Program-made: the position numbers and the translations under genes
In this document: positions 37,063 through 54,727 of the stretch, in pieces
Layout of the letters: each line of letters opens with the position of its first letter
How positions within the stretch are numbered: the stretch's first letter is position 1
Assembly (NCBI GenBank): GCA_024998815.1
Contig: JACEUQ010000002.1
Location: 696,501 to 760,500 of the forward strand
Length of the DNA stretch: 64,000 bases
Source of the DNA: Opitutus sp.
GTDB taxonomy: Bacteria; Verrucomicrobiota; Verrucomicrobiia; Opitutales; Opitutaceae
Direction: 5' to 3'
The notes under the pieces: model-generated
Told to the model about the DNA's origin: nothing
The model's input: the letters and a program-made list of their open reading frames with translations, nothing else
Database searches by the model: none

Positions 37063-38234
37063 TCGTCGCTAGGGTCGTCGGGCAATTCGTCACCGGGATA
37101 AAACAGCAGCTCGGCGGCGCGGCTCCAGCTGGTGCGGCGGGCCCAGCTACGACCGGCCACGCCCATGCGGCTGCGCAGCACGGGATCTTCGATGAGTTGG
37201 CGGAACGCCTCGGTGAGCGCCGCGGGGTGTTGCGGGGCGACCAGCAAACCTGTTTCGCCGTCCACCACCGCTTCTGCCACACCACCGACCCGGTGCGCCA
37301 CCACCGGCAGCCCGTGGGCGGAGGCCTCCAGATAAACGAGTCCGAACCCCTCCACGCTGTGACCGTAATCGATGCTGGTGAGCGCAAAAATGTCCGCGCG
37401 GGCATAGAGGCGCTCGAGTTCCTCCTCCGCTACGTTGCCAAAAAAACGCACACTCGGGCCAGGCCGGGCGGCCGCTGCGCGCAGGGTCCGCTCGTAGCCA
37501 CCCCTATTCGCACTGCCCGCAACCCAATACTCCACTCGCTCGGCAAGCGCGGGCGGCAGCGCTTGCAAGGCCTGCAAAGCGAGCAACTGGCCCTTGCGCG
37601 GGTGAATCCGCCCGACTGTTAACACCACGACTTTGCCTGATGCTGCAGCCGCCGCGCTCGCCGCCGGTGTTCGCGCGACTGTGGCGAAATCATCCCGCAA
37701 CGCGCCGGGAGTCAGGAAGGTTTTCGCATCAGCCTCTGGGAAGCACTCACACAACAAGTTTTTGGTGTAATGCGTGAGCGTGGTGATGCGAAACGCGTGC
37801 CGAATCAGGCGGCGCGTGAGCCAGCGGGTCACCGGGTCAGCGTGGAAGCGCAGGATTTCCGAGCCGTGGAAGGTGAGCACGATCCGGCGAGGGCGGAAGG
37901 TGCGCAGGGGCAGCAGTGCCATGAGGGCGAGCATCGGCCCTGGTTCCGGCAAATAAACCGTGGCGTAGCGCAACCGGCGGCGCTCACGGATGAGCCGCAC
38001 GATGAGCTTGAGGCGACAGAACAGGTTGTGGGTGCCAGCCAGAGGCAGCCGACGCAGGGTGAACGGCCAGGGCTTTTCGGGGTGGCCTGCCGCGCTCTGG
38101 GCCCAAACTTCGATTTTGTGGCCCAGTGCCGCGCCGGCCCGGGCGACCTCCTCGGTAAACGTCGCGATCCCCCCTCGCTTGGGAAAAAACTCGTGTGTGA
38201 TGACAAACACAGAGTGCGGGCCTGAATCATTCAT
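37059..38234 (-). CDS. GT4-type glycosyltransferase
   Basis: A 391-residue GT4 enzyme. The N-terminus 'HSVFVITHEFFPKRGGIATF' has the Gly-rich loop, and the C-terminal part has the E-x7-E motif in 'SVEGFGLVYLEASAHGLPVV', followed by 'GGVAEAVVDGETGLLV'. It leads the two-GT operon on the minus strand. It is divergent from the ACP-FabZ gene, 147 bases away, so the two units may share a control region. Confidence 0.9.
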   Translation of the reverse strand: MNDSGPHSVFVITHEFFPKRGGIATFTEEVARAGAALGHKIEVWAQSAAGHPEKPWPFTLRRLPLAGTHNLFCRLKLIVRLIRERRRLRYATVYLPEPGPMLALMALLPLRTFRPRRIVLTFHGSEILRFHADPVTRWLTRRLIRHAFRITTLTHYTKNLLCECFPEADAKTFLTPGALRDDFATVARTPAASAAAAASGKVVVLTVGRIHPRKGQLLALQALQALPPALAERVEYWVAGSANRGGYERTLRAAAARPGPSVRFFGNVAEEELERLYARADIFALTSIDYGHSVEGFGLVYLEASAHGLPVVAHRVGGVAEAVVDGETGLLVAPQHPAALTEAFRQLIEDPVLRSRMGVAGRSWARRTSWSRAAELLFYPGDELPDDPSDE

Positions 38235-38381
38235 GAAGGCGCAAGCTCGTCAGGCAAATCCGCGCCGATGGCAAGCCCTGCCCCGCCAGCACCTGTTTTT
38301 TTGTAACTAAAATAAAATTCACCGGTCAGCGTTCCGTGTTTGTAACCTTGGTGCCGCCAATTTTACCCTCCCGCCCAACAC

Positions 38382-39347
38382 ATGTCGTCCGCCGCTCCCT
38401 CCACCGCCACGCCTGCCCACGTTCCCCTCACCGCCGAGGCCGAAATCGCGTTACGGGAAAGCCTGCGTCGGTGCTCGGCTAAAACCGTCGATGCCGCCGT
38501 CGCCTACGGTCAGACCGGCGCCCCCCAGCACATCCCGGCGATCATCATCGGCATCATTGAGCGTTTCGTAGAACCCGAACTGCGCCCTCGCTTGGCCGCC
38601 GATTGCGACGACCTGCGCGTCATCGAGGATCTCGGGCTGGATTCACTCACCATGATGGAAATCGTCATGCTGGTCGAAGAGGTCACCCAGACCAAAATCG
38701 AGAACGACGAGTTGCGCGGGCTGGTCACGATTGGCGACATCAAGATTTTCGTGGATTGCCGCGCCCGCGGGGTGACGCCTCCCGCGCCCGCCAAAGTCAT
38801 CCTCGGCGATGAACTGCGCAACCGCATGCCGATTTCAGCACCGTTTCTATTTCTCGACGATGCCCGCGTCAGCCCGACCCTCGCCACCGCCAGTTACCGC
38901 ATCACCGGCCAAGAGTTTTTCCTCGCCGGCCATTTCAAGGGCAACCCGGTTATGCCCGCCTCCATCATGCTGGAGGCGCTGGGCCAACTCGGCGTGCTGC
39001 ACCTGCTCACCGGGCTGCCCGTGGACGCCGGCAAGGTCGTGGGCGTTGCCACCATTTTCTTCGCCTCAACCGACGGCGTGCGTTGCCACCGCGTCTGCAA
39101 ACCCGGCGACGTGCTCACCCTGACGCTTAAGCCCAAACGCGTTAAAGAGCCGCTCGCCGTTTACACCGGCAGCATTCGCGTGGGCCAGGAAAAAGCCATC
39201 AGCGCCGAGGAAATCACCCTGACCTTCGGCATCGTCGACGCGCCTCCCGCTCCCGAGCCCGAAGCGACGCCCGCAGCTGAGCCAATTTCGCCCCCCGCAC
39301 CGATTGCGGCAACCGCCGCATCGACGACTCCTTCGCCTGCGGCGTGA
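38382..39347 (+). CDS. Acyl carrier protein fused to FabZ-type dehydratase
   Basis: A 321-residue two-domain protein. The first part is an acyl carrier protein with the phosphopantetheine serine (Ser88) in LGLDSLTMMEIV. A linker of about 30 residues follows, then a hot-dog-fold (3R)-hydroxyacyl-ACP dehydratase with the catalytic His184 in 'LAGHFKGNPVMPASIM' and Glu198. A Pro/Ala-rich tail ends the protein. The fusion puts carrier and dehydratase on one chain. It lies 80 bases before a FabF-type ketosynthase. It is likely part of a secondary lipid or polyketide pathway, not central FAS. Confidence 0.88.
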   Translation: MSSAAPSTATPAHVPLTAEAEIALRESLRRCSAKTVDAAVAYGQTGAPQHIPAIIIGIIERFVEPELRPRLAADCDDLRVIEDLGLDSLTMMEIVMLVEEVTQTKIENDELRGLVTIGDIKIFVDCRARGVTPPAPAKVILGDELRNRMPISAPFLFLDDARVSPTLATASYRITGQEFFLAGHFKGNPVMPASIMLEALGQLGVLHLLTGLPVDAGKVVGVATIFFASTDGVRCHRVCKPGDVLTLTLKPKRVKEPLAVYTGSIRVGQEKAISAEEITLTFGIVDAPPAPEPEATPAAEPISPPAPIAATAASTTPSPAA

Positions 39348-39427
39348 GTTGAACCGCCACCGCTTTTGGCGCACGCCGTGTAGCCCCGCTCTAACACGCT
39401 CCGCTGCGGAAACCGAATTATTCAGCC

Positions 39428-40690
39428 ATGCCTCGTATCTTCATCACCGGATTAGGATTTATCACCAGCATCGGCAACAGCTCAGCAGTCGTTGAGCAAA
39501 ACCTGCGCGAGCTGCGCCACGGGTTTGTCTGCCATCCGGCATTCGCCGCCGACACGATTCCGGTCAAAGTGGCCGCCCCGGTGCGCGACTTCAAAACCGA
39601 CGCCGAAGACCCCGAGGACTGGACGATCCCCGCGCCGTATTCGGTAAAACGCGACCAATTGCGCAGTCTCAGCCCGAACGCGCTCTACGCGACCTGCGCG
39701 ATGCAACAGGCCATCACCGACGCGAAACTCGCGCCCGAGGACGTCTCCAACGACGACACCGGCCTCTACGCCGCCTCGGCGGGTTCGCCCGGCATGCTGG
39801 CGCGCCAAGTTAACCGCATGAATCAACACGGGGTGATGCGCTGCCAGCCACTCGGTGTGGTGGCCAGCATCGCCGGCACGGTGCAATTCAACTTGGTCGC
39901 GCATTTTAAAATCAAGGGAGCGTCCACGGGCTTCACCTCGGCGTGCGCCGCTTCGGCCCACGCGATGGGTTTCGCCATCGATGAAATCGCGCTCGGCCGT
40001 CAGAAACGCATGTTCGTGGTCGGTGCCGAAGACGGCAACGTGGAGACGATCCTGCCGTTTGCGGCGATGCGCGCGCTGTCACTCAACCCCGACCCCGCCA
40101 CGGCCTCGCGCCCCTTCGACAAGCGCCGCGACGGCTTCGTCGGCACCGGTGGCGCCACCGTACTCGTGCTCGAAAGCGAAGCGGAGGTTCTGCGCCGCGG
40201 CGTAACCCCGTACGCCGAAGTGCTCGGTTGGGGCCAGGCCTCCGACGGCCACAATGTCGCCATTCCTCACCCCGACGGCGCCGGCCTGATTTCCGCCATG
40301 CGCAAGGCGCTCGCTGCCACCGGAGTCACCCCGGCCGACGTGGATCACATCAACGCGCACGGCACCTCCACGCCGATGGGCGACGCAGCCGAGTGTAAAG
40401 CCGTTCGAACCGTATTTGGCGAACACGCCGCCCGCGTCGCCATGAGCAGCACCAAGGCGCTCACAGGACACGGCCTTTCGCTGGCTGGAGCGATGGAGGC
40501 GGGCTTCTGCGCCCTCGCGCTCAAGCGTGGATTCATCCCCGGTTCGGCGCACATCAGCGAACTCGATCCGGCCTGCGAAGGCATAAAAATCCCCCGCACC
40601 ACGCTGGTCGAACAGCCGCGCATTGTGCTCAACAACAGCAGCGGATTTGGCGGGGCCAACGTCTGCGTCGTGCTCAAGCAGGTGGCTTAA
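39428..40690 (+). CDS. 3-oxoacyl-ACP synthase, FabF/KAS II type
   Basis: A 420-residue condensing enzyme that elongates acyl-ACP. The catalytic triad is intact: Cys173 in 'TSACAASAHAMG', His311 in 'HINAHGTSTPMGD' and His348 in 'TKALTGHGLSLAG'. The length is typical for FabF. It follows the ACP-FabZ gene on the same strand and precedes a glycosyltransferase by 21 bases. This cluster and not a fab locus suggests a dedicated lipid or polyene product. It is also possible that it is a normal KAS II paralogue. Confidence 0.9.
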   Translation: MPRIFITGLGFITSIGNSSAVVEQNLRELRHGFVCHPAFAADTIPVKVAAPVRDFKTDAEDPEDWTIPAPYSVKRDQLRSLSPNALYATCAMQQAITDAKLAPEDVSNDDTGLYAASAGSPGMLARQVNRMNQHGVMRCQPLGVVASIAGTVQFNLVAHFKIKGASTGFTSACAASAHAMGFAIDEIALGRQKRMFVVGAEDGNVETILPFAAMRALSLNPDPATASRPFDKRRDGFVGTGGATVLVLESEAEVLRRGVTPYAEVLGWGQASDGHNVAIPHPDGAGLISAMRKALAATGVTPADVDHINAHGTSTPMGDAAECKAVRTVFGEHAARVAMSSTKALTGHGLSLAGAMEAGFCALALKRGFIPGSAHISELDPACEGIKIPRTTLVEQPRIVLNNSSGFGGANVCVVLKQVA

Positions 40691-40711
40691 CCCGTCGAGC
40701 GCGCTGCACGA

Positions 40712-42028
40712 GTGAAGGACGAAGGAAAAGTAGCGCAGACTTCCAGTCTGCTCGGGGCAGCCGATCACCAAGCAGACTGGAAGTCTGCGCTACCTCCAGC
40801 CGATGCGCCCGTCATAGCCTACCTTTTCACCACGTTCCCGAAAGCCACGGAAACGTTCCTCCAGCGCGAGGTGACCGGCCTGCAGGCGCTCGGCGTCAAC
40901 CTGCGGCTCTACTCGATGTGGGGCGGAGGCGGCACGTTTAACGGCCAGCACGTGACCCGTTTCCCTAAGTGGAAACTCCTCTCGCTCGCCGTGTGGTTAC
41001 CCTGGCTGGGCCTGCGGCACCCGAGCGTACTCGGCGAACTTTTACGCGGAGTCTGTAGCCATCGCCCGCGGTCGACCCTCAACTTGTTTGAGAACCTGCT
41101 CGGGCTCGGCTTCGGGCTCATCCACGCATCCCAGTTCCGTAAAAACCGCCCGGCGCACATCCACGCCGTTTGGGGCGGCGCACCCGCGGCGAGCGCGTGG
41201 CTGCTCTCGCGGCTCGACGGCCATGAATACAGTGGAGCGGGTCATGCCTATGACCTGTATCAGCACGGCGGCGACGGCTGGCTGCGCCAAAAACTCGCAC
41301 CTGCACTTTGGATCCACACCTCGACCGACATGGGCCGACGCACGCTCTTGGAAAAGGGGCTGACCGACGGAAAAATTCACGTCATCCGCCGAGGGTTAAC
41401 CACCCTGCCGCCGCTCAAAAGCCTGCGCTCCGAGCGCAGCAGTACCCCGTTGCGCTTGTTATGCGTGGCCCGGCTCGTGCCCAAAAAAGGCCTCGACCAC
41501 CAGCTGCGTATCTACGCCGCGCTCAAGGCGGCGGGCGTGCCGTTTGAGGCGCGTATCGCCGGCGAAGGCCCGTTGCGCACCGCGCTTGAAAACCAGACCC
41601 GCGCCGCCGGTCTGACGGCGCAGGTGACGTTCCTCGGCCACCGACCGCAGGCGGATATCGCCGCGCAATTGGCATGGGCCGACGTTCTGCTCCACACCGG
41701 TGTGGTAGCGGCGGACGGCGACCGCGACGGGTTGCCCAACGTAATTCCCGAAGCGATGAGCGCCGGCGTGCTGGTGGTCACTTCACCGGCGGCGGCCACC
41801 ACCGAAGCGATCACCGACGGACTAACCGGTCGCGTATGCCCGTTCGATGAACCGGCCCGCTGGGTGGAAGCGCTGAGCGCCTTACGACATGATGGCAATA
41901 ACGCGAACGCGCGATCGGCGGCCCAGATGCAACTGGCCGCGCGCGCCTGGGTGGAAGCGAATTTCGATGCGCATAAAAACGCAGCGCGGCTGGCAGCGCT
42001 TTATCGGGAGCTCACGGCGGGGCACTGA
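40712..42028 (+). CDS. GT4-type glycosyltransferase with repeat-encoded N-terminus
   Basis: A 438-residue GT4 enzyme. The domain proper opens 'PVIAYLFTTFPKATETFLQR' (about residue 33) and has the E-x7-E stretch in 'DGLPNVIPEAMSAGVL' with 'AITDGLTGRVC' near the end. The only plausible start upstream is GTG 40712, so residues about 7-28 come from a family A palindrome (protein words VAQTSSLL and ADWKSAL). No ATG, GTG or TTG lies between the palindrome and the domain. It lies 21 bases after the FabF gene and probably belongs to the same operon. Confidence 0.85.
   Translation: MKDEGKVAQTSSLLGAADHQADWKSALPPADAPVIAYLFTTFPKATETFLQREVTGLQALGVNLRLYSMWGGGGTFNGQHVTRFPKWKLLSLAVWLPWLGLRHPSVLGELLRGVCSHRPRSTLNLFENLLGLGFGLIHASQFRKNRPAHIHAVWGGAPAASAWLLSRLDGHEYSGAGHAYDLYQHGGDGWLRQKLAPALWIHTSTDMGRRTLLEKGLTDGKIHVIRRGLTTLPPLKSLRSERSSTPLRLLCVARLVPKKGLDHQLRIYAALKAAGVPFEARIAGEGPLRTALENQTRAAGLTAQVTFLGHRPQADIAAQLAWADVLLHTGVVAADGDRDGLPNVIPEAMSAGVLVVTSPAAATTEAITDGLTGRVCPFDEPARWVEALSALRHDGNNANARSAAQMQLAARAWVEANFDAHKNAARLAALYRELTAGH
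40730..40793. repeat. Family A palindrome inside a glycosyltransferase gene
   Basis: GTAGCGCAGACTTCCAGTCT ... AGACTGGAAGTCTGCGCTAC with perfect 22-base arms. It is read in frame at the N-terminus of the glycosyltransferase. The arms are the same as in the copy at 33230. Confidence 0.95.
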
Positions 42029-42095
42029 CCCTGAGCTCACGCTCAAGGCCACACGTCACCCGACATACCTCGTGGCCTTGAGCGTGAGCTCAAGG
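42029..42095. repeat. Family B palindrome between convergent genes
   Basis: CCCTGAGCTCACGCTCAAGG ... CCTTGAGCGTGAGCTCAAGG, with the arms continuing to GCCACA / CGTGGC. It starts at the base after the glycosyltransferase stop and supplies the last 17 or so codons of the heparinase-like gene on the other strand. Confidence 0.9.
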
Positions 42096-43938
42096 TTCCC
42101 TCCGGCTGCTCCGGATCGAGCCGCAACTCGAAGTCCGCTTTGGCGTAACGAGCGCGAATTACCAACTGCCCGTCCGGCGCAAAAACGACGTCGAGCGTTG
42201 CCGCCAAGGGCCCCTCGTCGTTCGGCACGATGAGCCAGACATTGGTAGCGGGCTTGGCCACCCGTTGCGTAAACAGTGTGCAGGATGCCGGAGTCTTGAA
42301 ATTGAACCGGTCGCTCGACCAGCCTTGCACCGGATGATTGGCACCGCGCACCACCTGCCAGTCGCCGCCCGAAGCGCTGGAAGCAACCTGGAGTCGAAGT
42401 GAGCCCGCACCGTGGCGAATAATCTGCCCCGTGGCCGAATCGGCCGGAAGCGCGTCACAGACTGGCTCCCAATGCCAGAGCGTGCTCAGCGTGGCGGGCT
42501 GGAAGGCAACAATGCGGTCCACCACGATCCACCCCTGGTTGCGCACGTGAATCACCAGCCGCCGCCAGTCGCCGGCACGGGCATTTTCAGCAGTAGAAAA
42601 AGAGGTGTCGCCGTACGCGATTTCAAGATCCCCTTGGCGGAAAAACCGGCCGAGCGAATCGGGCGCACCGACGGCTTTCGGCCCCTGATCAGCGCCCTGG
42701 CCATCGAACAGGACAACATTATGGCCGGTCGCACCTGCGAAGTAGTCACGCCACGGGCCGGGCGCGTAGGTGTAGCGACCGTTGTCCACGAGGAAATCGC
42801 GGGTGCCCACCGACACTGAGAGGTGCAGGCGGTCGGCATGGTCATGGTCGGTGCCGCGTGGACCGGCGTCGAAGAACGACCAAAGCGTATCGTCACTGTG
42901 GGCATCTCGACTGCGGAAAACCGCCTGGCCCGCGTAGGGCATCCAATGGGAAACAGGGAGAGTCGGATCGGCGAGGTCGGGAGTGTTGTCGCGCAGGAGG
43001 CGGGCCACGTTTTCCTGGTCGGAGTCGTTGTTGAGCGGGTTGCCATGATCGGGCTTCATCACCGCCGCCAAATACGCCCAAAGCGTGCGTACACGCGGCC
43101 GCCAAGTATCCGCGAGATCGTGACGCCCGGCGGCATCGAGCAACGTGAGCAGGCGCTGGTAGATTGTCGCCACCACGCGTTGGTAGTGAGCGGACAACTC
43201 CTTGTGCGTACCGTCAGGGTAAACCTGGTCAGTGTAGCTTTGCTCGAGCTGCGCCAGGCTGTAACTTAGCCATTCCCCAGCATCGCGGTCTGTTTTAAAA
43301 ACCAGGCTGAGTTGGGCCAACGCCAGCATTTCGGTGATGCGGTGGTTGCCGGCGAGCGCGTGGTGGTGGCGCAATTGTTCGCCATGGGCGTGAACGCTAG
43401 CAAGGAAACGGGCGCGACGCTCGGCGGTGAACTGGGGGTGGTCGCCGAGCTTGAGGTAAACCAGCGACCAGCTGTCGATGATGCGGCGGGCCGCTTCCAG
43501 GGGGCGCCAAGCGGCGGAAAAGGAAAAACGCCCCGGCGCGGGGTGGCGCACGATCCAATCATCGAGGGTGACAAAAATAAACTCAGGGTAACGCTCGTCG
43601 TGGGTACGCGCATACGCCTGCCAGATTAAGGGAAAATAAGCGTGGCGGTTAAAAAACCACGCCCACTCGGGGTCGTCACGGGGGCCTTTGTCATCCCAGT
43701 CAAAACCGCCGTCGGCGCGTCGAGCAGCGACGCCCTGCACCCCTTGAAGTGTGAAGGTGTCGCGCAATGCGAACTCGGCCTCAGCCAGCGTGGCGTCTCC
43801 AGCCGGACCTGCCACGGTGAGAATCGGGGCCCAAGCCTCAGCGGAATCTTCGGCGACTGCATGTAGCCGGGGGCCGGCGAGTAGCAGCAGGGCAACCAGC
43901 GCAGCCCGGAACGCCGAACTCTTACACGTCGGTTCCAC
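42043..43938 (-). CDS. Heparinase II/III-like polysaccharide lyase
   Basis: A 631-residue secreted protein with a signal segment ('AFRAALVALLLLAGPRLHAV'). The N-terminal half is the alpha-helical Hepar_II_III domain ('ALAGNHRITEMLALAQLSLV' with the conserved N-H-R), and the C-terminal half has 'GPRGTDHDHADRLHLSVSVG' and 'HNVVLFDG', as in the lyase family. The GTG start at 43938 overlaps the small membrane gene. The last residues ('TLSSRSRPRGMSGDVWP') are encoded by a family B palindrome. The substrate is probably an acidic polysaccharide in envelope glycan turnover or synthesis. Confidence 0.82.
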   Translation of the reverse strand: MEPTCKSSAFRAALVALLLLAGPRLHAVAEDSAEAWAPILTVAGPAGDATLAEAEFALRDTFTLQGVQGVAARRADGGFDWDDKGPRDDPEWAWFFNRHAYFPLIWQAYARTHDERYPEFIFVTLDDWIVRHPAPGRFSFSAAWRPLEAARRIIDSWSLVYLKLGDHPQFTAERRARFLASVHAHGEQLRHHHALAGNHRITEMLALAQLSLVFKTDRDAGEWLSYSLAQLEQSYTDQVYPDGTHKELSAHYQRVVATIYQRLLTLLDAAGRHDLADTWRPRVRTLWAYLAAVMKPDHGNPLNNDSDQENVARLLRDNTPDLADPTLPVSHWMPYAGQAVFRSRDAHSDDTLWSFFDAGPRGTDHDHADRLHLSVSVGTRDFLVDNGRYTYAPGPWRDYFAGATGHNVVLFDGQGADQGPKAVGAPDSLGRFFRQGDLEIAYGDTSFSTAENARAGDWRRLVIHVRNQGWIVVDRIVAFQPATLSTLWHWEPVCDALPADSATGQIIRHGAGSLRLQVASSASGGDWQVVRGANHPVQGWSSDRFNFKTPASCTLFTQRVAKPATNVWLIVPNDEGPLAATLDVVFAPDGQLVIRARYAKADFELRLDPEQPEGTLSSRSRPRGMSGDVWP

Positions 43939-44158
43939 GGGCGAGCAAGCGGGCGAGCGGGCGGGCGAAACCGGCGAGGGCCAGCGACAGCGAGATGCCC
44001 ACAAGCGGACGGGAGAGCTGTTGTTTTACAAAGAAGCCGGCGTAGCTCGGGTTGAATGCGTCGAAGGATTGAGCGAGGTTGGCCAACAGCGTGACGAGGT
44101 TCACGACCACGCCACAAAGGGCCAGCAGGCGCACGAGCAGGAGGGCTTGGCGGTACAT
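43922..44158 (-). CDS. Small membrane protein of unknown function
   Basis: A 78-residue, strongly hydrophobic protein starting 'MYRQALLLVRLLALCGVVVN' with two or three membrane segments (about 5-29, 50-70). It overlaps the heparinase-like gene by 17 bases, as translationally coupled genes do. No family was recognised. The reading frame is open and the overlap is natural, but it could be a chance ORF. Confidence 0.5.
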   Translation of the reverse strand: MYRQALLLVRLLALCGVVVNLVTLLANLAQSFDAFNPSYAGFFVKQQLSRPLVGISLSLALAGFARPLARLLARGTDV

Positions 44159-44328
44159 CGGGCCGACTCAAACGAGGACGGGCGCGAGCGTCATCACAAA
44201 AACATGCGGCAACGGAATTCATCGTTCGGCTCTGCCTAGGGCTGCTTCGCCGCTACGACGGCGCCCGCCACTCCACCACGCCACTTCGGGGTTGCGGGCA
44301 AGTTCGGTGAATCCACATTCGCTCGCAC

Positions 44329-45246
44329 GTGACACCTGCCAACACCCACACGGATCCGCCCGAGGTCAGTATTATCATGGCGGTTTTTAACCGACTCGAC
44401 CTCACCCAGCGCTGCCTCGTCACGCTGGAGCAGTCGCTCATCGGCGTAAATTTTGAAGTCTTGATCGTGGACGACGTGAGCACCGACGGAACACGCGATT
44501 TCTTAAAAACCCTCGGTTCGCTGCATCGGGTTTTTCTAAACGAGCGGAAGGGCAATTTCGCGATCAACAACAACCTCGCGGCGCGGGAAGCTCGGGCGGA
44601 ACGGCTGCTGTTTTTAAACAACGACACCGAACTCGCCCCCGGCTGGTATGAGCCGCTGCGGGAAGCGTTGGCGGAAAAACCCGACGCGGGGTTCATTGGC
44701 AACCACCAGACCAATCCAACGACCCGCCGCTACGATCACCTCGGCGTGGTCTTCGCACCGTGGCTAACGCCGACCCACTACGGGCAACATTTCGCGCGGG
44801 TTCCGGCCGTTCTGCGCACTGGTGTGACACCTTGGAGCGCGGTAACGGCGGCGTGTTGCCTGACGCACCGCGACACGTTTTGGGCGGCGGGCGGTTTTGA
44901 CGAAGCCTACGTGAACGGCTGCGAAGACATCGATTTGTGCCTGCGCATGCACCGGCTCGGGCGACGTCACTATGTGGCCAACGCGAGCGTGATCGTGCAC
45001 CACAAAGGCGCTTCGCCAGGGCGGAAGCGATTTAACGACGTCAATCTGGAGCGGTTCAAGGCGGTCTGGGGCGACACGATCCGGCGTGAGTTTGTGGCGA
45101 GCGACGCGCGGTTGTTCGCGAAAACCTACCTGCGCAAAACGTTGGTTTACCCGTGGAAATCCAATCTGGGTAAAACCTGGGCGTGCCTGCGGATTTTGGC
45201 GGGCTGGCCGGCCAGGCGCGCACCGAAAGTGTCACCTAATAGGTGA
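44329..45246 (+). CDS. GT2-type glycosyltransferase
   Basis: A 305-residue GT-A fold enzyme of family 2, opening 'VSIIMAVFNRLDLTQRCLVT' with the nucleotide-binding loop and the DxD-like metal site 'LLFLNNDTELAPGWY'. The start is the GTG at 44329. The last eight or so residues ('APKVSPNR') and the stop codon are encoded by the family C palindrome at the end of an IS-like element, so the C-terminus has been replaced or trimmed. It probably belongs to the surface-glycan region. Confidence 0.82.
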   Translation: MTPANTHTDPPEVSIIMAVFNRLDLTQRCLVTLEQSLIGVNFEVLIVDDVSTDGTRDFLKTLGSLHRVFLNERKGNFAINNNLAAREARAERLLFLNNDTELAPGWYEPLREALAEKPDAGFIGNHQTNPTTRRYDHLGVVFAPWLTPTHYGQHFARVPAVLRTGVTPWSAVTAACCLTHRDTFWAAGGFDEAYVNGCEDIDLCLRMHRLGRRHYVANASVIVHHKGASPGRKRFNDVNLERFKAVWGDTIRREFVASDARLFAKTYLRKTLVYPWKSNLGKTWACLRILAGWPARRAPKVSPNR

Positions 45247-45269
45247 CACTTTCGGTCTGGAGTTTGGCC
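45221..45269. repeat. Left 49-base inverted repeat (family C hairpin plus tag)
   Basis: Begins CACCGAAAGTGTCACCTAAT and ends GTCTGGAGTTTGGCC. The first 36 bases are the perfect hairpin ACCGAAAGTGTCACCT - AAT - AGGTGACACTTTCGGT. It is the exact inverse of 47064-47112. Confidence 0.95.
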
Positions 45270-45306
45270 CCAAAAGCAGGTGGATGCGAAGCGGCCGGAG
45301 GCCCGG

Positions 45307-46719
45307 TTACGCAGCGCGGAAGAGTGCTTCAGCCAAGAAGGGTGGCGCTTTTGATGAGTTCGTGGAGGGAGGGTCGGTCGACGTGAAGTCGGAGAAACTC
45401 TCTGGGGCGATCTGGTCGGCCCAGCATTCGCTGCGCAGGGTGCGCAAGAGGTCCCCCGTGGAACTGGTCGCAGGCGAGGCGCCCGAAGAGTGCGTGCGCC
45501 ATTTGGGCGGGCGAAGATGCGGCGGCGGATCAGGGGTTTGCCCCGCAGGATCGCCGAAGAGCAGGGCGGCGATTAACAACAGCGCATAGGCGGCGACGGT
45601 GGCGGCGGGTTGGTTGCGGTTGGAGGCGGCGGTGCGCAGTTGTGCCTGGCCGGTGCCGATCAGGGTTTTCTCATCCCGGAAGTTTCCCTCGATGACCCAA
45701 CGCCAGAGGTAATACTGGAGTTGGTCACCCACGGGCATATCCGGGTCGGTGCAAACCAAGAAGGCAGGCTGGCGATAGAGCAGCTTCGAGCCTGCGCGCA
45801 ATCGGTAGCCCACCGGGGCGATCACCATGACTTGCAACGGGAGCGTCGCCCCGGCTTTACGCCACAGCACCGGCCCGAGGGTCTTGATTTTAAAGGTGTG
45901 CTTTTTTCCGGCCGCATAAGCCTCGACGCTTTGCCAGGCCACGGTGTCGTCGGTGCGCAGCTCTTCCGGGGTCTGGACCGGCGCGCCATAGACCGGCGGG
46001 CGACCGGTGGCCGCGGGTGGTCCAGGCAGGGCGTTGAGCACGGCGTCCCGGCGGATCCGGCCGATATAAACGGTCTTGGCGGGCAGGCCCTTGAGTACGA
46101 CCGCATTGGTGTAACTGCCATCGCCGGCGACCACCAGTTTGCGCGTGTCTGGCAGCGCCTGGCGAAGCTGCTGGATGCGGGCGAGCGCGACGACATTAAG
46201 CCGCTGCTGTTTTTTCTTCTCCGTGTACTGCTGAACCTCGTCGGTAGTGGCTTTTTTACCCGGCTTTGGCGGCGTCGGCGCGTGGGTGAAATCCACCGGA
46301 ATCATCCGGGCGTGTCCGTCGGAACCAGGCCAGGCCGCAGAGAGTTGCACATAGCGCTGGCCGCGCACCAGGTTGGTTTGGAACGCGGGGCCGAGCGGAT
46401 CGCGTTTCCAGCCGACGCCGTCGATCTTGACCCCGGTTTTGCGTACCAGGGTGTCATCGATGGCGGCCACCAACGGGGTAAGCGCCGGCAGGTTTACCTC
46501 AAGCTCATGGAGGACCGTGCGGAAAAGCCCCGCCGGCTTCACCCGGTCACGCGAATACAACCGGTAGTCGGCCGTCCAGTCCTGCTGGGCACGCCCGCAC
46601 AGACAAATCAGGTTGGTAAGAGTCCCCCGGCACGGTGAAACCAGTGCCGCCATGAGATGCCCCTGCAGTCTCCGGGCGCACTCGGGGGCGGCGCAAGCCG
46701 CAGCACAAGCCCGTTTCAT
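45307..46719 (-). CDS. Transposase, DDE (IS4-superfamily)
   Basis: A 470-residue transposase. The catalytic residues are visible: Asp in 'PLVAAIDDTLVRKTG', Asp in 'KLVVAGDGSYTNAV', and Glu in 'WRWVIEGNFRDEKTLIG', the last being the Y-x2-x3-E-like stretch of the IS4 superfamily. A long beta-insert lies between the second Asp and the Glu. The start at 46719 is set by an ATGA overlap with the AbrB-like gene (an earlier ATG at 46749 is possible). The exact IS family was not decided. Confidence 0.85.
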   Translation of the reverse strand: MKRACAAACAAPECARRLQGHLMAALVSPCRGTLTNLICLCGRAQQDWTADYRLYSRDRVKPAGLFRTVLHELEVNLPALTPLVAAIDDTLVRKTGVKIDGVGWKRDPLGPAFQTNLVRGQRYVQLSAAWPGSDGHARMIPVDFTHAPTPPKPGKKATTDEVQQYTEKKKQQRLNVVALARIQQLRQALPDTRKLVVAGDGSYTNAVVLKGLPAKTVYIGRIRRDAVLNALPGPPAATGRPPVYGAPVQTPEELRTDDTVAWQSVEAYAAGKKHTFKIKTLGPVLWRKAGATLPLQVMVIAPVGYRLRAGSKLLYRQPAFLVCTDPDMPVGDQLQYYLWRWVIEGNFRDEKTLIGTGQAQLRTAASNRNQPAATVAAYALLLIAALLFGDPAGQTPDPPPHLRPPKWRTHSSGASPATSSTGDLLRTLRSECWADQIAPESFSDFTSTDPPSTNSSKAPPFLAEALFRAA

Positions 46720-46973
46720 AAGTCGTCCCAGCCGATCGGATAAACCCAACTGGACTTTTTTTTAACGCCTACGTCCACCAGCTCGGGCGTGACCGGCATA
46801 ACGGGCGCGACCAGACTGCGTGAGAGGACCAAATGATGCGCGTCGGTGACGGTCCACTCGACGGCCTCCGACTTGGCGAACCCCATCGTCTGGGCGATGG
46901 AAGCGGGTAATGTCACATACCACTGCTCACTGTTTTTGCGGATGATGCGCTGAACTTTGGTGGTGGTGCTCAT
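46716..46973 (-). CDS. AbrB/SpoVT-like DNA-binding protein
   Basis: An 85-residue protein starting MSTTTKVQRIIRKNSEQW. The stretch 'YVTLPASIAQTMGFAKSEAV' followed by 'EWTVTDAHHLVLSR' is the swapped-hairpin AbrB/MazE DNA-binding fold. An upstream ATG at 47027 would add 18 basic residues. Its stop overlaps the transposase start (ATGA), so the two are translated together. It may be a repressor of the transposase promoter or an antitoxin-like part; no toxin gene is adjacent. Confidence 0.7.
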   Translation of the reverse strand: MSTTTKVQRIIRKNSEQWYVTLPASIAQTMGFAKSEAVEWTVTDAHHLVLSRSLVAPVMPVTPELVDVGVKKKSSWVYPIGWDDL

Positions 46974-47063
46974 GGTCCGACACCATCGTTCATGGCCACG
47001 CTTTTTCCCATGGGCCCGACGCCCCATTTATCTCTAGGGCCTTCTCCGGGCCAACTAGTCAGA

Positions 47064-47112
47064 GGCCAAACTCCAGACCGAAAGTGTCACCTAATAGGTG
47101 ACACTTTCGGTG
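47064..47112. repeat. Right 49-base inverted repeat (family C hairpin plus tag)
   Basis: The exact inverse of 45221-45269: GGCCAAACTCCAGACCGAAA ... ACACTTTCGGTG. Outside it, AACTAGTCAGA extends the match to the tag at 29381 (TCTGGAGTTTGGCCCCTGAC). Confidence 0.95.
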
Positions 47113-47333: not shown

Positions 47334-48533
47334 TCAAAGCGCTTTTTTCTTGGCGTAGGCAAACGCCTCGCCGATGCGCTCGATCTGTTCGTCGCTGTGA
47401 CCGGCGGAAATGGCAGTGCGAATCAGGTCTTTGCCGATCGGTACGGCGGGGGCGATCGACATGACGGTGAACACGTTTTTCTCCAGCAACGCCTGCCAAA
47501 AGGCGTAGGCGCGCTGCTTGTCACCGATCACCACGGGCACGGCGGGCGTTTCGCTGCCCCAGGTGTCCAACCCAAGGTTTTTTAACATCGCCGTGTAACG
47601 GCGGGTGTTGGTCCAAAGGCGTTCGAGGTGCTCCGGTTCGGATTGGAGCACGTCGAGGGCGGCCGAGGCGGCGGCGGTTTGCGACGGGCTGAGCGAGGCG
47701 CTGAAAATCGTGTGTTTACTGTGCGTGCGCAGGTACTCGATCAGCGCGCGATCGCCGGCCACGTAACCGCCGGTGCTTGCGAGGGCCTTGGACATGCTGC
47801 CGCAGATGATATCAACATCGGCGGTGAGCCCGAAGTGGTCGCAGGTCCCGCGCCCCTGCCGGCCAAGCACGCCAAAACCGTGGGCGTCGTCGAGCACGTT
47901 AAAACAGGTGAACTCCTTGGCAATCGCGAGCAGGCCGGGCAAGTCGGCGATATGGCCTTCCATCGAGTAAATGCCCTCGATGACCATCATCTTGGCCACT
48001 GCCGGAGGCAGACTGGTGACTACGGCGCGCAGGTCTTCGGCGCTGTTATGGGAAAAACGCTCGACGGTGGCAGTCGACAGGCGGATGCCGTCCCACAGGC
48101 AGGAGTGGATGTTTTTGTCGGCGAGGATGACGTCGCCTTTTTGGGCAAAGGCGGCGATGCCGGATAGGCAGGACAAATAACCGGCGGCGTGAACGTGGCA
48201 GGCTTCTTTACCCAAAAACGCGGCGAGTTTTTCCTCGAGTTCGAGGTGATAAGCACGTGAGCCGTTGGAAACGCGCGCACCGGTCGGGCTGGAGCCCCAT
48301 TTGAGAAGGGCGGCGCGGGACGCCTCGATGACCTTCGGATGGAAGGAAAGCCCGAGGTAGTCGTTACTCGCCAACATGATCATGTCGCGGCCCTGAAGGC
48401 GCACGGTGGTGCCCTGCTGGGCTTCCATGGCGTGGTAGTAGGGCGCGTACCGCAGGCGCAGCTTCGTGGCCGAATCGTCACGGGCGCGCTCAGCGATCGG
48501 TTTTTTGGACTTGGAGAAAAAAGGGAAGGCCAT
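47334..48533 (-). CDS. Alpha-oxoamine synthase (BioF/serine palmitoyltransferase-like)
   Basis: A 399-residue PLP enzyme that condenses an acyl thioester with an amino acid to give an amino ketone. The PLP lysine is Lys249 in 'CGSMSKALASTGGYVAG', with Asp216/His218 in 'VLDDAHGFGVLG' and a stacking-type His143 in 'DKNIHSCLWDG'. The family includes BioF, glycine C-acetyltransferase and serine palmitoyltransferase; the basic N-terminal extension and the SKALAS context favour the SPT side over BioF, but this needs a tree. No bio genes are near. It is the last gene of an exporter operon, 28 bases after the ATPase gene. Confidence 0.82.
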   Translation of the reverse strand: MAFPFFSKSKKPIAERARDDSATKLRLRYAPYYHAMEAQQGTTVRLQGRDMIMLASNDYLGLSFHPKVIEASRAALLKWGSSPTGARVSNGSRAYHLELEEKLAAFLGKEACHVHAAGYLSCLSGIAAFAQKGDVILADKNIHSCLWDGIRLSTATVERFSHNSAEDLRAVVTSLPPAVAKMMVIEGIYSMEGHIADLPGLLAIAKEFTCFNVLDDAHGFGVLGRQGRGTCDHFGLTADVDIICGSMSKALASTGGYVAGDRALIEYLRTHSKHTIFSASLSPSQTAAASAALDVLQSEPEHLERLWTNTRRYTAMLKNLGLDTWGSETPAVPVVIGDKQRAYAFWQALLEKNVFTVMSIAPAVPIGKDLIRTAISAGHSDEQIERIGEAFAYAKKKAL

Positions 48534-48561
48534 GGTTAAATGCTAAAAGCCGGCGATGCAC

Positions 48562-49236
48562 CTAAGCCAGAATCACGCCGTCCTGCATACGAAAAACGTG
48601 GTCGCAGCGGTTGGCCAAATCGGGGTTGTGCGACACCATCAGCAGCGCTTGGCCGCGTTGGTGGGCGATGTCGCTGAGCAACGCGAACACCCGGTCGGCG
48701 TTGGCGTGGTCCAAGTTACCCGTGGGCTCATCGGCCAGAATCAAACCGGGGTCGTTGGCCAACGCACGGGCAATGGCCACGCGCTGCTGTTCACCGCCTG
48801 ATAACTGCGTACCCAGACGCCGGGTTTTGTCACCCAGTCCGACGGCGGCGAGTAGGTCCGACGCCTTGGCTCGCATCGCTTCTTCGGGCAGGCGGCCAAG
48901 TTTGCGCATCGGCAGCATGACGTTCTCCAGCGCGGTGAACTCCTTGAGTAAAAAATGAAACTGGAAAACAAAGCCCATGTGCTCATTACGCACGGCTGTG
49001 CGCTCGTCGTCGGACAGCCGACTGGTCTCGCGGTCGCCCACCCAGATTCGCCCCTCGTCGGGGATGTCGAGCAGGCCGATGAGGTAAAGCAGCGTACTTT
49101 TGCCCGAGCCGGAATGGCCGGCGATGGCGTAGGTGCGCCCGCGCTCGATAGTGAAGCCGACTCCGCGCAGCGCGTGGCAGCGGGTGTCGCCCTCGCCCAG
49201 GTGGCGATGGAGGTTTTCGACGCGCAGCAGGCTCAT
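48562..49236 (-). CDS. ABC transporter ATP-binding protein, LolD/MacB type
   Basis: A 224-residue ATPase that drives an export-type permease. It has Walker A 'IAGHSGSGKSTLLYLIG', the signature 'LSGGEQQRVAIARA', Walker B 'LILADEPTGNLD', and the His switch 'MVSHNPDLAN'. The start is the ATG at 49236, which overlaps the permease stop (ATGA). The ATPase belongs to the LolD/MacB/DevA group used with FtsX-type permeases. It lies between the permease and the alpha-oxoamine synthase. Confidence 0.93.
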   Translation of the reverse strand: MSLLRVENLHRHLGEGDTRCHALRGVGFTIERGRTYAIAGHSGSGKSTLLYLIGLLDIPDEGRIWVGDRETSRLSDDERTAVRNEHMGFVFQFHFLLKEFTALENVMLPMRKLGRLPEEAMRAKASDLLAAVGLGDKTRRLGTQLSGGEQQRVAIARALANDPGLILADEPTGNLDHANADRVFALLSDIAHQRGQALLMVSHNPDLANRCDHVFRMQDGVILA

Positions 49237-50477
49237 GAGGAACTCCCCCGGATGACCGCGCCCGGCTCCAGACGAGCGGCGCGGCGAGATGGGAAATAAC
49301 TGGCAATTAACACCACGATTGTGGCGATGACTGCGGCCGCCACGTAGTGCCACGGATCCCACAAGACGACGAAGTGGTCGCTGGCGAAAATCCCGCGGAT
49401 GCGAATCGGGATATGCGAAAGAGTGTAAGTCCCCAAGGCGGCGGCCGCGCACCCGAGCACCACCCCGACCACCACGACAATACCGCCTTGCAGCATAAAA
49501 ATACGGCTGATGTCGGCCCGCGTGTAGCCCATTGAACGCAGGATGGCGATTTCGCGGGTCTTATCGACGACGATCATCACCAAGGTGTTAAACATGCCCA
49601 AGCCGGAGATAAAAATGATGGTCGAGATGGTCAGGGCGGAGGAAATACGCAGCACGCTAAAAACCTGCAGCCAGGTTTTCTCGCGTTCCTGCCACGCCAT
49701 GGTGGAGTGCGAAACAGCCTGCTCAATGCGGGGGGCGAGCGCAGGGGCGAGCGAGGGATCGAGCAGGTTGATTTGGATGAACGAGGCACCCGTAGGCTTG
49801 TTGAGCAGGGTACGAATAGCGGAAAGGTGCAGGTAGACGCGTTCGCGATCCACTTGATCGATACCCGTTTCAAAAATGGCGGCGACGCGGTAACGTTGCG
49901 GTTCGCCCGGCCCATCGAGCAAAACGGAATCCCCCACTTGCAAATTCATCCGCCTGGCTATTCGCGATCCAGCGATCAGGGCGTAGGGGCTTTCGCCAAA
50001 GGCTTTGATCGAGCCGTCAATAATCTGAGTGTCGAGGTCGGATACATTAAGGAAGGTATCGAGTTCGATACCGTAGGGCTTGGTGTCGTATTCGCGGAAA
50101 TTAGCGATGAGCGTGGCATTGCCCCGAATGACGGGCGAGGCCGCCGTGACCTCGGCGAAGCCATTGAGCGCGTCGATGACAACCTTAGGGTGCTGAATGC
50201 CTGGGATATACTTAACCGAGCCCTCCACTGCGATGGAGAAGCTGCTGCCCTCGGTTGCAGTAATCGCACGGGTCGACTGAATGCGGTCTTCAATGCGAAC
50301 CATCCCGTTTACCCCGAGGATGGTTTTGATAAAATAGGCCTCGAAGCCGGCGGTCTGGGCCTGGGTGATGACAAAAAAAGCCACCCCGAAAACGATGCCC
50401 GTCAGGCTCATGAGCATGGCGCGCTTGCGGGCGCCAAGGAAGCGGAGCGCAATGAGCAGGGAAGGAGGCATGGGCAA
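49233..50477 (-). CDS. ABC transporter permease, FtsX/MacB type
   Basis: A 414-residue membrane protein of the MacB/LolE/DevC group. An N-terminal helix ('RAMLMSLTGIVFGVAFFVIT') is followed by a large periplasmic domain (about 45-270) and an FtsX core with three helices near the C-terminus ('ISSALTISTIIFISGLGMFN', 'GGIVVVVGVVLGCAAAALG', 'WHYVAAAVIATIVVLIASYF'). The ending matches 'P-A-R-x-A-A-x-L-x-P-x-x-x-I-R'. It starts 10 bases after the adaptor gene. Confidence 0.93.
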   Translation of the reverse strand: MPMPPSLLIALRFLGARKRAMLMSLTGIVFGVAFFVITQAQTAGFEAYFIKTILGVNGMVRIEDRIQSTRAITATEGSSFSIAVEGSVKYIPGIQHPKVVIDALNGFAEVTAASPVIRGNATLIANFREYDTKPYGIELDTFLNVSDLDTQIIDGSIKAFGESPYALIAGSRIARRMNLQVGDSVLLDGPGEPQRYRVAAIFETGIDQVDRERVYLHLSAIRTLLNKPTGASFIQINLLDPSLAPALAPRIEQAVSHSTMAWQEREKTWLQVFSVLRISSALTISTIIFISGLGMFNTLVMIVVDKTREIAILRSMGYTRADISRIFMLQGGIVVVVGVVLGCAAAALGTYTLSHIPIRIRGIFASDHFVVLWDPWHYVAAAVIATIVVLIASYFPSRRAARLEPGAVIRGSSS

Positions 50478-50486
50478 TAAACAGAA

Positions 50487-51593
50487 TTAGCGGCTGACCT
50501 GAACGCGCATGCCGTCGCGGAGCGACTCGAGTTGTGTCAACGCCACCTGCGCGTTTTCCGGCACCCCATCAAGGATCTCCACCGCACTCAGGCTTCGAAA
50601 ACCCACCGTAACGGGGCGACGGTACGCCACGCCATTTTCGACCACAAAAACCGCCCCATCCTTCAGCGCGGAACGCGGCGCAATCAACGCACCCTCACGA
50701 CGGTTGCGAATGATACTGGCCTCACCACTTAAGCCCGGAATAAGGCGGTCGGTGGGGATATCCACGTCCAGGTAAGCGCGGTATTGCTGATTGAGCGGAT
50801 CGGCATTGGGCAGAACTTTGACCACCTTGGCCGGATAAAGCTCAGGCCCGTAAGCTAGGAAGCGCACCGATGCATCCAAACCGATACGGATACCGGAAAA
50901 GTCCTCCTCATTGATGCGGGCTTCGACCTGAATCGCCTTACTAAACATGCGAACCAACGGAGCGCGCACCGCAACCACCTCACCGGGCTGCGCAAACAGC
51001 TCGGTCACCGTTCCCGAGGTCGGGGCCTTGACGTGGCAATCCGCGATATCCCGACGGAGAAGCTTAATGGTGTGTTCCAGACCACCGAGTTTAAGGTCCC
51101 GCTCAAGGTGGTCCTTGCTCTGTTTTTCAATGAACATGGCAAGCTCATCTTGACGGCGCTTGAGCTCGAGTTCGGGGTATTCACCCGCCTTAGTACGAGC
51201 AGCAAAGTTGGCCAGATCCTCCTTGCGACGCTCAATGGCAGTGCGCTGATCAAGATCTAGCGCAAATTGTTGGCGGGAATTCTCTAAAGCGAGCAGCAGC
51301 TGTGAAAGCGTGAGTTCATACTTGGAGCTGTCGATTTCGAACAGCAGATCGCCCTCACTCACCACTTGGCCAATTTTCAAGTTCGATTTGCGCACAAGAC
51401 CGGCGACATCACTTGAGATCGTCACTTGAAACTCTGGATCCACTTTGACTGCGGCGGGCACGGCATCGAGTGCCCTATCACGCGTTATTGTGGCGACAGC
51501 CACCTCCGGACGCCCCCCAAAGAACAAACCACCGACGATCACGGCGCCCACAATAGTTGCGAACACAAGTAGTGATTTAGGCCTGAACTTCAT
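50487..51593 (-). CDS. Periplasmic adaptor (HlyD/MacA-type membrane fusion protein)
   Basis: A 368-residue protein with one N-terminal membrane anchor ('SLLVFATIVGAVIVGGLFF'), a barrel-sandwich domain ('VTISSDVAGLVRKSNLKIGQ', 'VKAPTSGTVTELFAQPGEVV'), a long coiled-coil hairpin (about 95-190) and beta-barrel C-terminal parts. This is the adaptor that links the inner-membrane pump to TolC. It follows the tolC gene by 62 bases. Confidence 0.93.
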   Translation of the reverse strand: MKFRPKSLLVFATIVGAVIVGGLFFGGRPEVAVATITRDRALDAVPAAVKVDPEFQVTISSDVAGLVRKSNLKIGQVVSEGDLLFEIDSSKYELTLSQLLLALENSRQQFALDLDQRTAIERRKEDLANFAARTKAGEYPELELKRRQDELAMFIEKQSKDHLERDLKLGGLEHTIKLLRRDIADCHVKAPTSGTVTELFAQPGEVVAVRAPLVRMFSKAIQVEARINEEDFSGIRIGLDASVRFLAYGPELYPAKVVKVLPNADPLNQQYRAYLDVDIPTDRLIPGLSGEASIIRNRREGALIAPRSALKDGAVFVVENGVAYRRPVTVGFRSLSAVEILDGVPENAQVALTQLESLRDGMRVQVSR

Positions 51594-51655
51594 ATGTTAT
51601 TGCAACCCGTTGTTTTATAGCAAACTTACATCCAATTAAAGAGGCGCCCTGCTGC

Positions 51656-52978
51656 TCACAAATTAACCGCAGCTGGTAGCGTCAGATCAAGGTAGTCGTT
51701 AATCGCCAACAACAATCGCACGCGTGTGCGCGAAACAGTCTGCTGGGCTTCGTTATGAACCACCTGCTTACTACGGAGTTCCTGCTGCGAGATTCGTCCC
51801 TCCTTAGCATCTCGCTCCTGCACCGCGAATTTCTGCGTGGCGAGTTCGGCACGCCGCTGATCAATCTGCAGCTGACGAGCGGAAAAACCGATCATCGCTA
51901 CCACCGTGGCACACTGAAGACGCAGTTCATCGCGAAAGGCGACCAGCTGCGCATCCAACCGACGCTGACGCAAGAGGACTTCGCGTTTTTTCGCTGAATT
52001 GGATGAGCCGTCAAACACGTTCCATGCCATGCTCACACCAACAAAATAAGAAAGAGTCTGCACGCTGTCCGCGCTCGATGTGTTCGTCTGAGACTGCCAC
52101 GTGGCGGCAGTGAAATTAAAATTGGGCCGCTGGGCCGCCTTGACCTTGATCAACTCCAGCCGTTCCCGTGCGACAAAATTCTGCCGACGCATCACCTCGG
52201 AGCTATCCTGTAGCCAGGCATCATCGCGCAACGATTGATTTTGATCCGCCCATGCAATCACAGCCGCCGCGTCCGGGTTGGGGACCGGCACGTTTAACGC
52301 GAGTGGGGCATCCCATCCTAGATTAAGCTTAAAATTGACTAAAATGCGCCGCTGCTGGGCTTCAACTAAGTCAATATCGACCAAACTCTGACTTAGATCG
52401 AGGTTGGCCTGCTCAATGGCAATGTCGGAAGCCGTGCCCTGTTCCTTGTCGGTCTGAGTCCGAGTGATACCGTCTTGAATCTGTTGCCGACGGAGGCGCA
52501 AGGTGACCAATGACTCCTGATTGACCAACAGAGTTAAATAATCAGCCCGCAGCGTCCGCTTCATTTGCCGCAGGATAAAAACGCGTTGGAGTTCCTCGTT
52601 TTTAAAGTCCAGCCGCGCCTGCTCGATGGCGGCGTCGAGGGCACCCCAATTATAAAGCGGTCGAGTGATGGACGCGTTAAACCCAAGGCCCATATTCTGC
52701 TTCGCCGGGGTGTCTCCCGTCATGTACATTGTCTTGGTGATACCTGAGTTAAACCCGACATCCACACGCGGATAGTATTTACCCTCCGCCGCTTCCAGCC
52801 GCGCAACCGACTCCTTTTGCGCAAGGCTTTGGGCCACTAACGCGGGAGCATTTTCACGCGCCTTTTCCAGCAAGCTATTAAGCTCGGGGATTTCGGCCTC
52901 CGGATATTGAATGGGAGCGGCCGACAAAGAGCCGAGGGACAGCAACGCAAGGCCAAGCAGACGACGTGGATAATGCAT
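51656..52978 (-). CDS. TolC-like outer membrane channel
   Basis: A 440-residue outer membrane efflux protein. A signal peptide (MHYPRRLLGLALLSLGSLSA) precedes the tandem helical repeats of the TolC family ('NSLLEKARENAPALVAQSLA', 'GLGFNASITRPLYNWGALDA', 'FVGVSMAWNVFDGSSN'). The start at 52978 gives a proper signal peptide; an ATG at 53005 adds nine residues. It is the first gene of the tolC-hlyD-permease-ATPase-oxoamine synthase run, all on the minus strand. Confidence 0.92.
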   Translation of the reverse strand: MHYPRRLLGLALLSLGSLSAAPIQYPEAEIPELNSLLEKARENAPALVAQSLAQKESVARLEAAEGKYYPRVDVGFNSGITKTMYMTGDTPAKQNMGLGFNASITRPLYNWGALDAAIEQARLDFKNEELQRVFILRQMKRTLRADYLTLLVNQESLVTLRLRRQQIQDGITRTQTDKEQGTASDIAIEQANLDLSQSLVDIDLVEAQQRRILVNFKLNLGWDAPLALNVPVPNPDAAAVIAWADQNQSLRDDAWLQDSSEVMRRQNFVARERLELIKVKAAQRPNFNFTAATWQSQTNTSSADSVQTLSYFVGVSMAWNVFDGSSNSAKKREVLLRQRRLDAQLVAFRDELRLQCATVVAMIGFSARQLQIDQRRAELATQKFAVQERDAKEGRISQQELRSKQVVHNEAQQTVSRTRVRLLLAINDYLDLTLPAAVNL

Positions 52979-54537: not shown

Positions 54538-54727
54538 GGGAAAACCGAGTTCGTAAGCCGCCACAGGCGCAAGAACGAACACCGAAGACAGGGAAAACGC
54601 GCCCGATCACTTGATAAAGGAACGACTCGGAACACCGTGTTTCTGCAATCCGCCTCACTGCAGGACGGCCCGTGGATCATCCCGTTCCACCCCAACCCGC
54701 AAGCGCCCGCCGGTTGCCCCTCGCGCC

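Follow-up and report, generated by a model that had tools for sequence, protein, structure and literature searches.

A candidate glycolipid exporter linked to a serine palmitoyltransferase-like synthase in Opitutales

Here we ask whether a tripartite pump and an alpha-oxoamine synthase encoded side by side in an Opitutus genome work together, the pump carrying away what the synthase makes. The stretch of DNA that was analysed (the window, 64,000 nucleotides; G000:C2:696501-760500) belongs to a genome of 4.24 Mb in three contigs. Five genes on its minus strand are the subject of this study: a TolC-like outer membrane channel (51656..52978, with an ATG at 52978; Pfam OEP, 87.7 bits), a periplasmic adaptor of the HlyD-type/RND_mfp type (50487..51593; HlyD_3/HlyD_D23), an ATP-binding cassette (ABC) permease of type VII, the predicted fold of LolE, LolF and MacB (49233..50477; FtsX and MacB_PCD), a LolD-like ABC ATPase (48562..49242; ABC_tran) and a serine palmitoyltransferase (SPT)-like alpha-oxoamine synthase of 399 amino acids (47334..48533; Aminotran_1_2). 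Coordinates and Pfam names agree with the gene order and positions given in a first-pass annotation of this DNA. The channel and adaptor genes are separated by 62 bases and the adaptor and permease genes by 9, permease and ATPase overlap by 10, and a gap of 28 bases lies between ATPase and synthase. A pattern scan, in which promoter-like and terminator-like sites came up about as often as in shuffled sequence, found neither kind of site in this gap, and a single transcript for the five genes is plausible. The answer that we favour, tentatively and at close to even chances, is that the LolE-like tripartite pump exports a glycolipid derived from the SPT-like enzyme. The wider proposal, a dedicated outer-membrane exporter of sphingolipid-like glycolipids (LolE-like permease, MacA-like adaptor and TolC) that is inherited together with a new clade of SPT-like enzymes across Opitutales, we consider possible but doubtful.

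Co-occurrence and linkage of synthase and pump

Among 130 Opitutales genomes that are 85% complete or more, 56 carry both the synthase and the permease, 3 the synthase only (G089, G101 and G151), 5 the permease only (G044, which has a partial synthase, G055, G058, G076 and G131) and 66 neither (Fisher P = 5.7e-27), so that both genes are present in 56 of the 64 genomes having either. The same four classes held 55, 3, 4 and 30 of the 92 genomes of at least 2 Mb, and permutation within families, informed by the four families that vary in both genes (f1, f5, f20 and f24), gave P = 0.007. The ketoacyl synthase gene of the surrounding cluster, which has paralogs and was scored at a chosen cut-off of E 1e-110, tracks the synthase less closely (54, 5, 19 and 52 of the 130 genomes in the corresponding classes).

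Physical linkage is looser. The permease adjoins the synthase in 4 of 80 named synthase loci, all from near relatives; many of the 80 are cut by contig ends, and in five beyond these four (L170, L202, L207, L219 and L228) the sequence starts less than 2 kb upstream and adjacency cannot be judged. Permease homologs occur in 39 of a set of 56 genomes, or 38 when the 25% match of G034 is left aside. At these 38 exporter loci, which are not independent of each other, the synthase lies within 8 kb of the permease in six (G000, G007, G011, G039, G044 and G052), and 13 of the loci have one cluster gene or more in that range, compared with 3 of 38 random draws of 16 kb (Fisher P = 0.0098). A draw was counted as matching when it held a cluster-gene hit of at least 90 bits, and of the three that did so one hit the G149 synthase locus, another a KBL-type paralog in G039 and the third a ketoacyl synthase with 28% identity. 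On the permease tree, a quick one made without bootstrap, having the synthase within 8 kb takes at least five changes, in the window's own clade, in G039, in G044, in G149, and in G052 together with G071, where a rough chance expectation that disregards the clustering of envelope genes would be about 0.16-0.28 lineages. Co-occurrence together with adjacency in at least five lineages makes a functional link between synthase and pump likely, as the genome-level evidence suggests, and the tie drawn in the first-pass annotation thus extends beyond the window; it does not make a conserved operon likely. The tight operon is local, and as an operon the pairing is not conserved. The objection foreseen in that annotation, an exporter found without the synthase in most relatives, applies to position, given the 6 of 38 loci, and not to genome content, given the 56 genomes with both.

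The window's own clade and G017 have exporters that join those of families f22 and f12 (SH-like approximate likelihood-ratio support, SH-aLRT, of 97), apart from the other exporters of family f1. Horizontal acquisition and replacement is the simplest reading, because no genome among the 13 in the genus has two permease matches; old paralogs with uneven loss may also account for this grouping.

Identity of the synthase and of the pump

Sequence comparison places the synthase within the SPT supergroup, as a deep clade of its own. Its top NCBIfam model is the Bacteroidetes SPT (SerpalmtaseCFB, 384.2 bits, cut-off 640), followed by the BioF/Kbl subfamily (342.3), the proteobacterial SPT (338.8, cut-off 500) and BioF (334.3, cut-off 426.45), all below their cut-offs, and the remaining curated SPT model is missed as well (277.4 against 670). 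Its closest relatives in the PDB are SPT of Sphingobacterium. We built a tree of 38 rows with references including Bacteroidetes and proteobacterial SPTs, KBL, E. coli BioF and a protein of pSymB that we take for RkpG. In it the window synthase and 16 orthologs form one clade (17 rows, 100/100) on a long stem, nested with the Bacteroidetes and proteobacterial SPTs in a supergroup of 29 rows (100/97) within which its closest sister is not settled. KBL, E. coli BioF and the pSymB protein fall outside, the latter two on long branches. The tree therefore disfavours BioF, KBL and RkpG as identities, BioF (8-amino-7-oxononanoate synthase) being missed in score too, and the expectation of an SPT-like enzyme that would not group with BioF was upheld.

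We know of no characterised member of this clade. The nearest synthases come from records that mostly carry Opitutaceae, Opitutae or Verrucomicrobia in their titles, nearly all of them metagenome-assembled genomes (MAGs). Synthase matches at E 1e-50 are found in 45 of the 56 genomes, the window's own included, 43 of them with at least 57% identity, while G053 and G055 have only paralogs of 36-38% identity; a protein search of the window's own genome returned one further relative, of 28% identity. Residues K249, H143, D215, H218 and R372 align with K244, H138, D210, H213 and R367 of the SPT structure 8guh, and we take K244, H138 and R367 to have active-site roles, most of them common to other alpha-oxoamine synthases. 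The enzyme thus resembles the SPTs of Sphingobacterium (8guh, 3a2b) and Sphingomonas (2x8u) in being a fold type I pyridoxal phosphate enzyme, in its active-site residues and in its supergroup, and differs from them in its separate deep clade, in scoring under the SPT cut-offs, in an alanine at the Ser81 site and in a genome without a match to bacterial ceramide synthase (bCerS), the last two being taken up below.

The exporter is a hybrid of a LolE-like motor, a MacA-like adaptor and a TolC-like channel. The permease scores 165.8 bits on the NCBIfam LolCE model (cut-off 362.45) and has LolF, LolC, LolE and MacB as its sequence relatives in the PDB. An AlphaFold2 model made from a 44-row alignment (pLDDT 84.1) was matched by Foldseek to LolE (TM 0.81) and MacB (0.62), and on this model a type VII ABC fold is predicted. 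The ATPase reaches 242.6 bits on LolD (cut-off 307.75) and 182.5 on DevA (cut-off 295.8), and the adaptor passes the RND_mfp model TIGR01730 (134.7 bits, cut-off 94.9) while scoring 42.6 against 342 on the MacA equivalog. The first-pass labels stand at the level of the five Pfam families, but the adaptor passes as RND_mfp and permease and ATPase are closer to LolE and LolD than to the Dev families. Membership in DevBCA-TolC, also proposed there, was abandoned: the four-part composition is present, but the ATPase falls short of the DevA cut-off, and the NCBIfam match lists of permease and adaptor contain no Dev model. MacAB-TolC is matched in part: an RND_mfp-type adaptor is present, but permease and ATPase are two overlapping genes and not one chain. 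The genome holds a second LolCE homolog at C3:520156, a better match to the LolCE model (260.1 against 159.5 bits) with a LolD-like gene adjoining, and this pair is presumably its own lipoprotein system. Because that pair is also under the LolD and LolCE cut-offs, these cut-offs discriminate poorly here.

The gene cluster around the synthase

In relatives the synthase sits in a glycolipid-type gene cluster, much of which is present in the window at 35974-45246. Two genes for GT4 glycosyltransferases by Pfam are on the minus strand, one (35974..37062) with homologs near the exporters of G051, G074, G131, G062 and G039, the other (37059..38234) with homologs in 18 of the 80 named loci. The latter is divergent from a plus-strand gene for an acyl carrier protein (ACP) fused to a FabA/FabZ-like dehydratase (38382..39347; FabA and PP-binding), which is followed on the same strand by a FabF-like beta-ketoacyl-ACP synthase (39428..40690; ketoacyl-synt N and C) and a further GT4 glycosyltransferase (40712..42028; Glycos_transf_1). 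A heparinase II/III-like lyase on the minus strand (42043..44004; Hepar_II_III N and C), with homologs near the synthase in L166, L168 and L171, and a GT2 glycosyltransferase on the plus strand (44329..45246; Glycos_transf_2) end this stretch. In the 80 loci the synthase keeps company with one GT4 family in 64, the 40712-type GT4 in 36, the ketoacyl synthase in 23, the ACP-dehydratase in 22, a glycosyltransferase like monogalactosyldiacylglycerol (MGDG) synthase in 21 and a short-chain dehydrogenase/reductase (SDR) in 15; the MGDG-like one was not found in the window.

The synthase is separated from this cluster by an insertion sequence (45221..47112) with 49-nt terminal inverted repeats, 98% complementary and with palindromic ends, and a DDE_5 transposase frame at 45307-46749; it begins in the final bases of the GT2 gene, downstream of the synthase. 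In G017 (L112, 6261-10553) permease and ATPase (69% and 75% identity) stand beside a homolog of the heparinase-like gene. Further away, the window encodes at 31249-32898 a GH3-family protein like OlsH, the lyso-ornithine lipid synthetase (381.7 bits, cut-off 620), which might N-acylate an amino lipid; the gene ahead of it (30035-31252) has no family match. Upstream of the exporter, a dGTPase-like gene (53191-54582) was tried as a neutral control for co-occurrence and was useless, being present in its own genome only (the other 129 Opitutales genomes gave no match at E 1e-60); it was perhaps recently acquired.

Export of a glycolipid and competing explanations

In the scheme that we favour the synthase would condense serine, or an amino acid close to it, with a long acyl chain that the ACP-dehydratase and the ketoacyl synthase of the cluster supply or extend; the product would be a sphingoid-like 2-amino-3-ketone. 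At the inner membrane a reductase and the glycosyltransferases would make this into a glycolipid. The LolE-like permease and LolD-like ATPase would then draw the glycolipid out of the periplasmic leaflet, and it would travel by way of the MacA-like adaptor and TolC-like channel to the outer membrane or outside. Substrate and product, and likewise the direction and destination of transport, are what we infer from the sequences of these parts.

Several findings weigh against this scheme. Four genomes (G055, G058, G076 and G131) carry the pump without such a synthase, and in the window's own genus 5 of the 12 synthase-bearing genomes (G001, G002, G003, G008 and G009) gave none for the permease at E 1e-20 when matches were sought. 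Common ancestry accounts for much of the co-occurrence, because 58 of the 66 genomes with neither gene belong to families lacking both throughout and 36 of the 66 are smaller than 2 Mb. Synthase adjacency taken alone (6 of 38 exporter loci) does not stand out from the random draws (1 of 38, a chance hit on a synthase locus; P = 0.11), and synthase and permease are 1.0-2.7 Mb apart in the one- or two-contig genomes G016, G025, G017, G066 and G069, the same-contig distances ranging from 7 kb to 2.7 Mb over 18 pairs with immediate neighbours excluded. The window ATPase scores higher on LolD (242.6) than does the ATPase of the presumed Lol system (217.8). As to the product, Ala86 takes the place of Ser81 of 8guh in the window enzyme and in 13 of the 16 tree orthologs, three having Ser, as do the SPT reference rows, and two KBL references having Val or Ala; this site is presumably significant for SPT, and serine as the substrate is therefore unsure. 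No SDR like that of the cluster turned up in the window, and no ceramide synthase match was found in the genome at E 1e-5 with a two-row profile of limited reach, made of two GNAT proteins that we took for bCerS, each encoded close to an SPT-like gene, one in Rubrobacter and one in Aureispira.

The points on distribution and distance speak for a pump with other cargo, be it small toxic molecules as for MacAB-TolC or an unrelated glycolipid, with adjacency an accident of horizontal insertion and co-occurrence a matter of ancestry. So does family f1, where the exporter is mostly away from the synthase and at 12 of 27 loci has two different conserved proteins nearby (clusters 4 and 5). The recurrence of adjacency in at least five lineages, the co-occurrence within families and the 13 of 38 loci at which the pump is linked to cluster genes argue the other way, and we find this explanation somewhat unlikely. 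Another role for the synthase is suggested by rhizobia, in which RkpG with RkpA and RkpH appears to make a lipid anchor or primer: it would make such an amino-lipid for a surface polysaccharide, the glycosyltransferases building the chain and the pump exporting primer or product. The glycosyltransferases and the heparinase-like lyase around the synthase would suit this, as would genes near the synthase in G003 and G008 that resemble polysaccharide export or synthesis (clusters 20, 26, 29 and 32, judged by eye and not by profile scan) and the place of the pSymB relative, our presumed RkpG, between an SDR-type multidomain gene and an SDR. We regard this role as improbable, considering that the tree keeps the pSymB protein, on its long branch, outside the supergroup of the window enzyme and that no polysaccharide-export protein was seen among the scanned window proteins.

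Permease and ATPase might instead release lipoproteins in the manner of LolDF, irrespective of what the synthase makes, since LolF, LolC and LolE are the closest solved relatives of the permease and LolD is nearest to the ATPase, with the higher LolD score given above. Yet an adaptor and a TolC gene share the operon, both proteins fall below the LolD and LolCE cut-offs, and the better LolCE match with its LolD-like neighbour lies elsewhere in the genome. In addition, the permease family profile has nothing to align with a loop of about 10 residues in LolF and LolE, which we take to be the Hook, or its counterpart, of the periplasmic domain. Passages of PMC8333309 treat the role of the Hook loop in lipoprotein release. 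A simple lipoprotein-releasing system is thus disfavoured, and we hold it to be very improbable.

The window enzyme probably does not lead to an ordinary ceramide. Strong matches to the bCerS profile were obtained in 2 of 37 genomes (G010 and G021), with weak partial ones in four more, and both strong matches lie by other synthase paralogs, that of G021 about 6 kb from a paralog of the proteobacterial SPT type. With nothing found by this profile in the window's genome the canonical ceramide pathway was set aside, and the sequences suggest that the enzyme is probably the entry to another amino-ketone lipid, glycosylated by its neighbours; 14 epimerase-like matches of a CerR profile in the genome are not telling. 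Export of a sphingoid-like base or a derivative, as first proposed, finds partial support in the SPT-like enzyme and the linkage of the pump, though a glycosylated derivative is the likelier cargo than the free base because glycosyltransferases surround the synthase. In G010 (L337; C1, about 1572829-1573932) a paralog of the synthase, 50% identical to the pSymB protein, directly adjoins the bCerS-like gene, a pairing which hints that RkpG-like enzymes give an N-acylated product. Spt-like proteins have been reported in 22 Verrucomicrobiota MAGs, and those of Cloacimonadota are described without bCerS or CerR nearby, in the sections of PMC11334938 concerned.

To call the pairing of synthase and exporter unusual, as was done at first, is too strong. 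According to portions of PMC11324152 the spt region of Caulobacter holds acpR, cerR and cerS together with the putative transport genes lptC2/F2/G2, and so resembles the window in having an SPT gene near an ACP gene and putative lipid transport genes; paralogs of the lipopolysaccharide-type Lpt proteins and a flippase are proposed there, whereas the window has a LolE-like permease, an adaptor and TolC. HgdD-DevBCA, which exports heterocyst glycolipids as set out in parts of PMC6161253, shares with the window pump an adaptor, separate permease and ATPase and a TolC-type channel, a glycolipid cargo being proposed here; DevCA is likened to MacB in the same parts, while the window pump is LolE/LolD-like and under the DevA cut-off. 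LolCDE/LolF and MacAB-TolC share the type VII fold predicted for the window permease, but Lol passes lipoproteins to LolA without a TolC partner and MacB is fused to its own ATPase (in part from portions of PMC8333309 and PMC6161253). In 2024 the transporters that carry bacterial sphingolipids to the outer membrane from the inner one were called unknown or not identified in passages of PMC11324152 and PMC11087976, the former proposing the Lpt paralogs, and we found no title describing the present exporter link among the open-licence papers that our searches listed. A pump that tends to co-occur with an SPT-like enzyme and adjoins it in several lineages is a concrete candidate sphingolipid transporter that can be deleted, and it points to a glycolipid class in Opitutales. 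Under the wider proposal, if true, transport of a bacterial sphingolipid from inner membrane to outer would have been shown for this pump before any other, and its cargo would represent a new type of lipid whose synthesis does not involve the known ceramide synthase.

Another neighbourhood of SPT and transporter, with a different type of pump, is seen on plasmid pPNP1 of Pseudomonas sp. JS425 (L249), where genes for an acyl-AMP ligase, an epimerase, a phosphopantetheine protein and an SPT-like enzyme are followed by an annotated ABC transporter ATP-binding protein.

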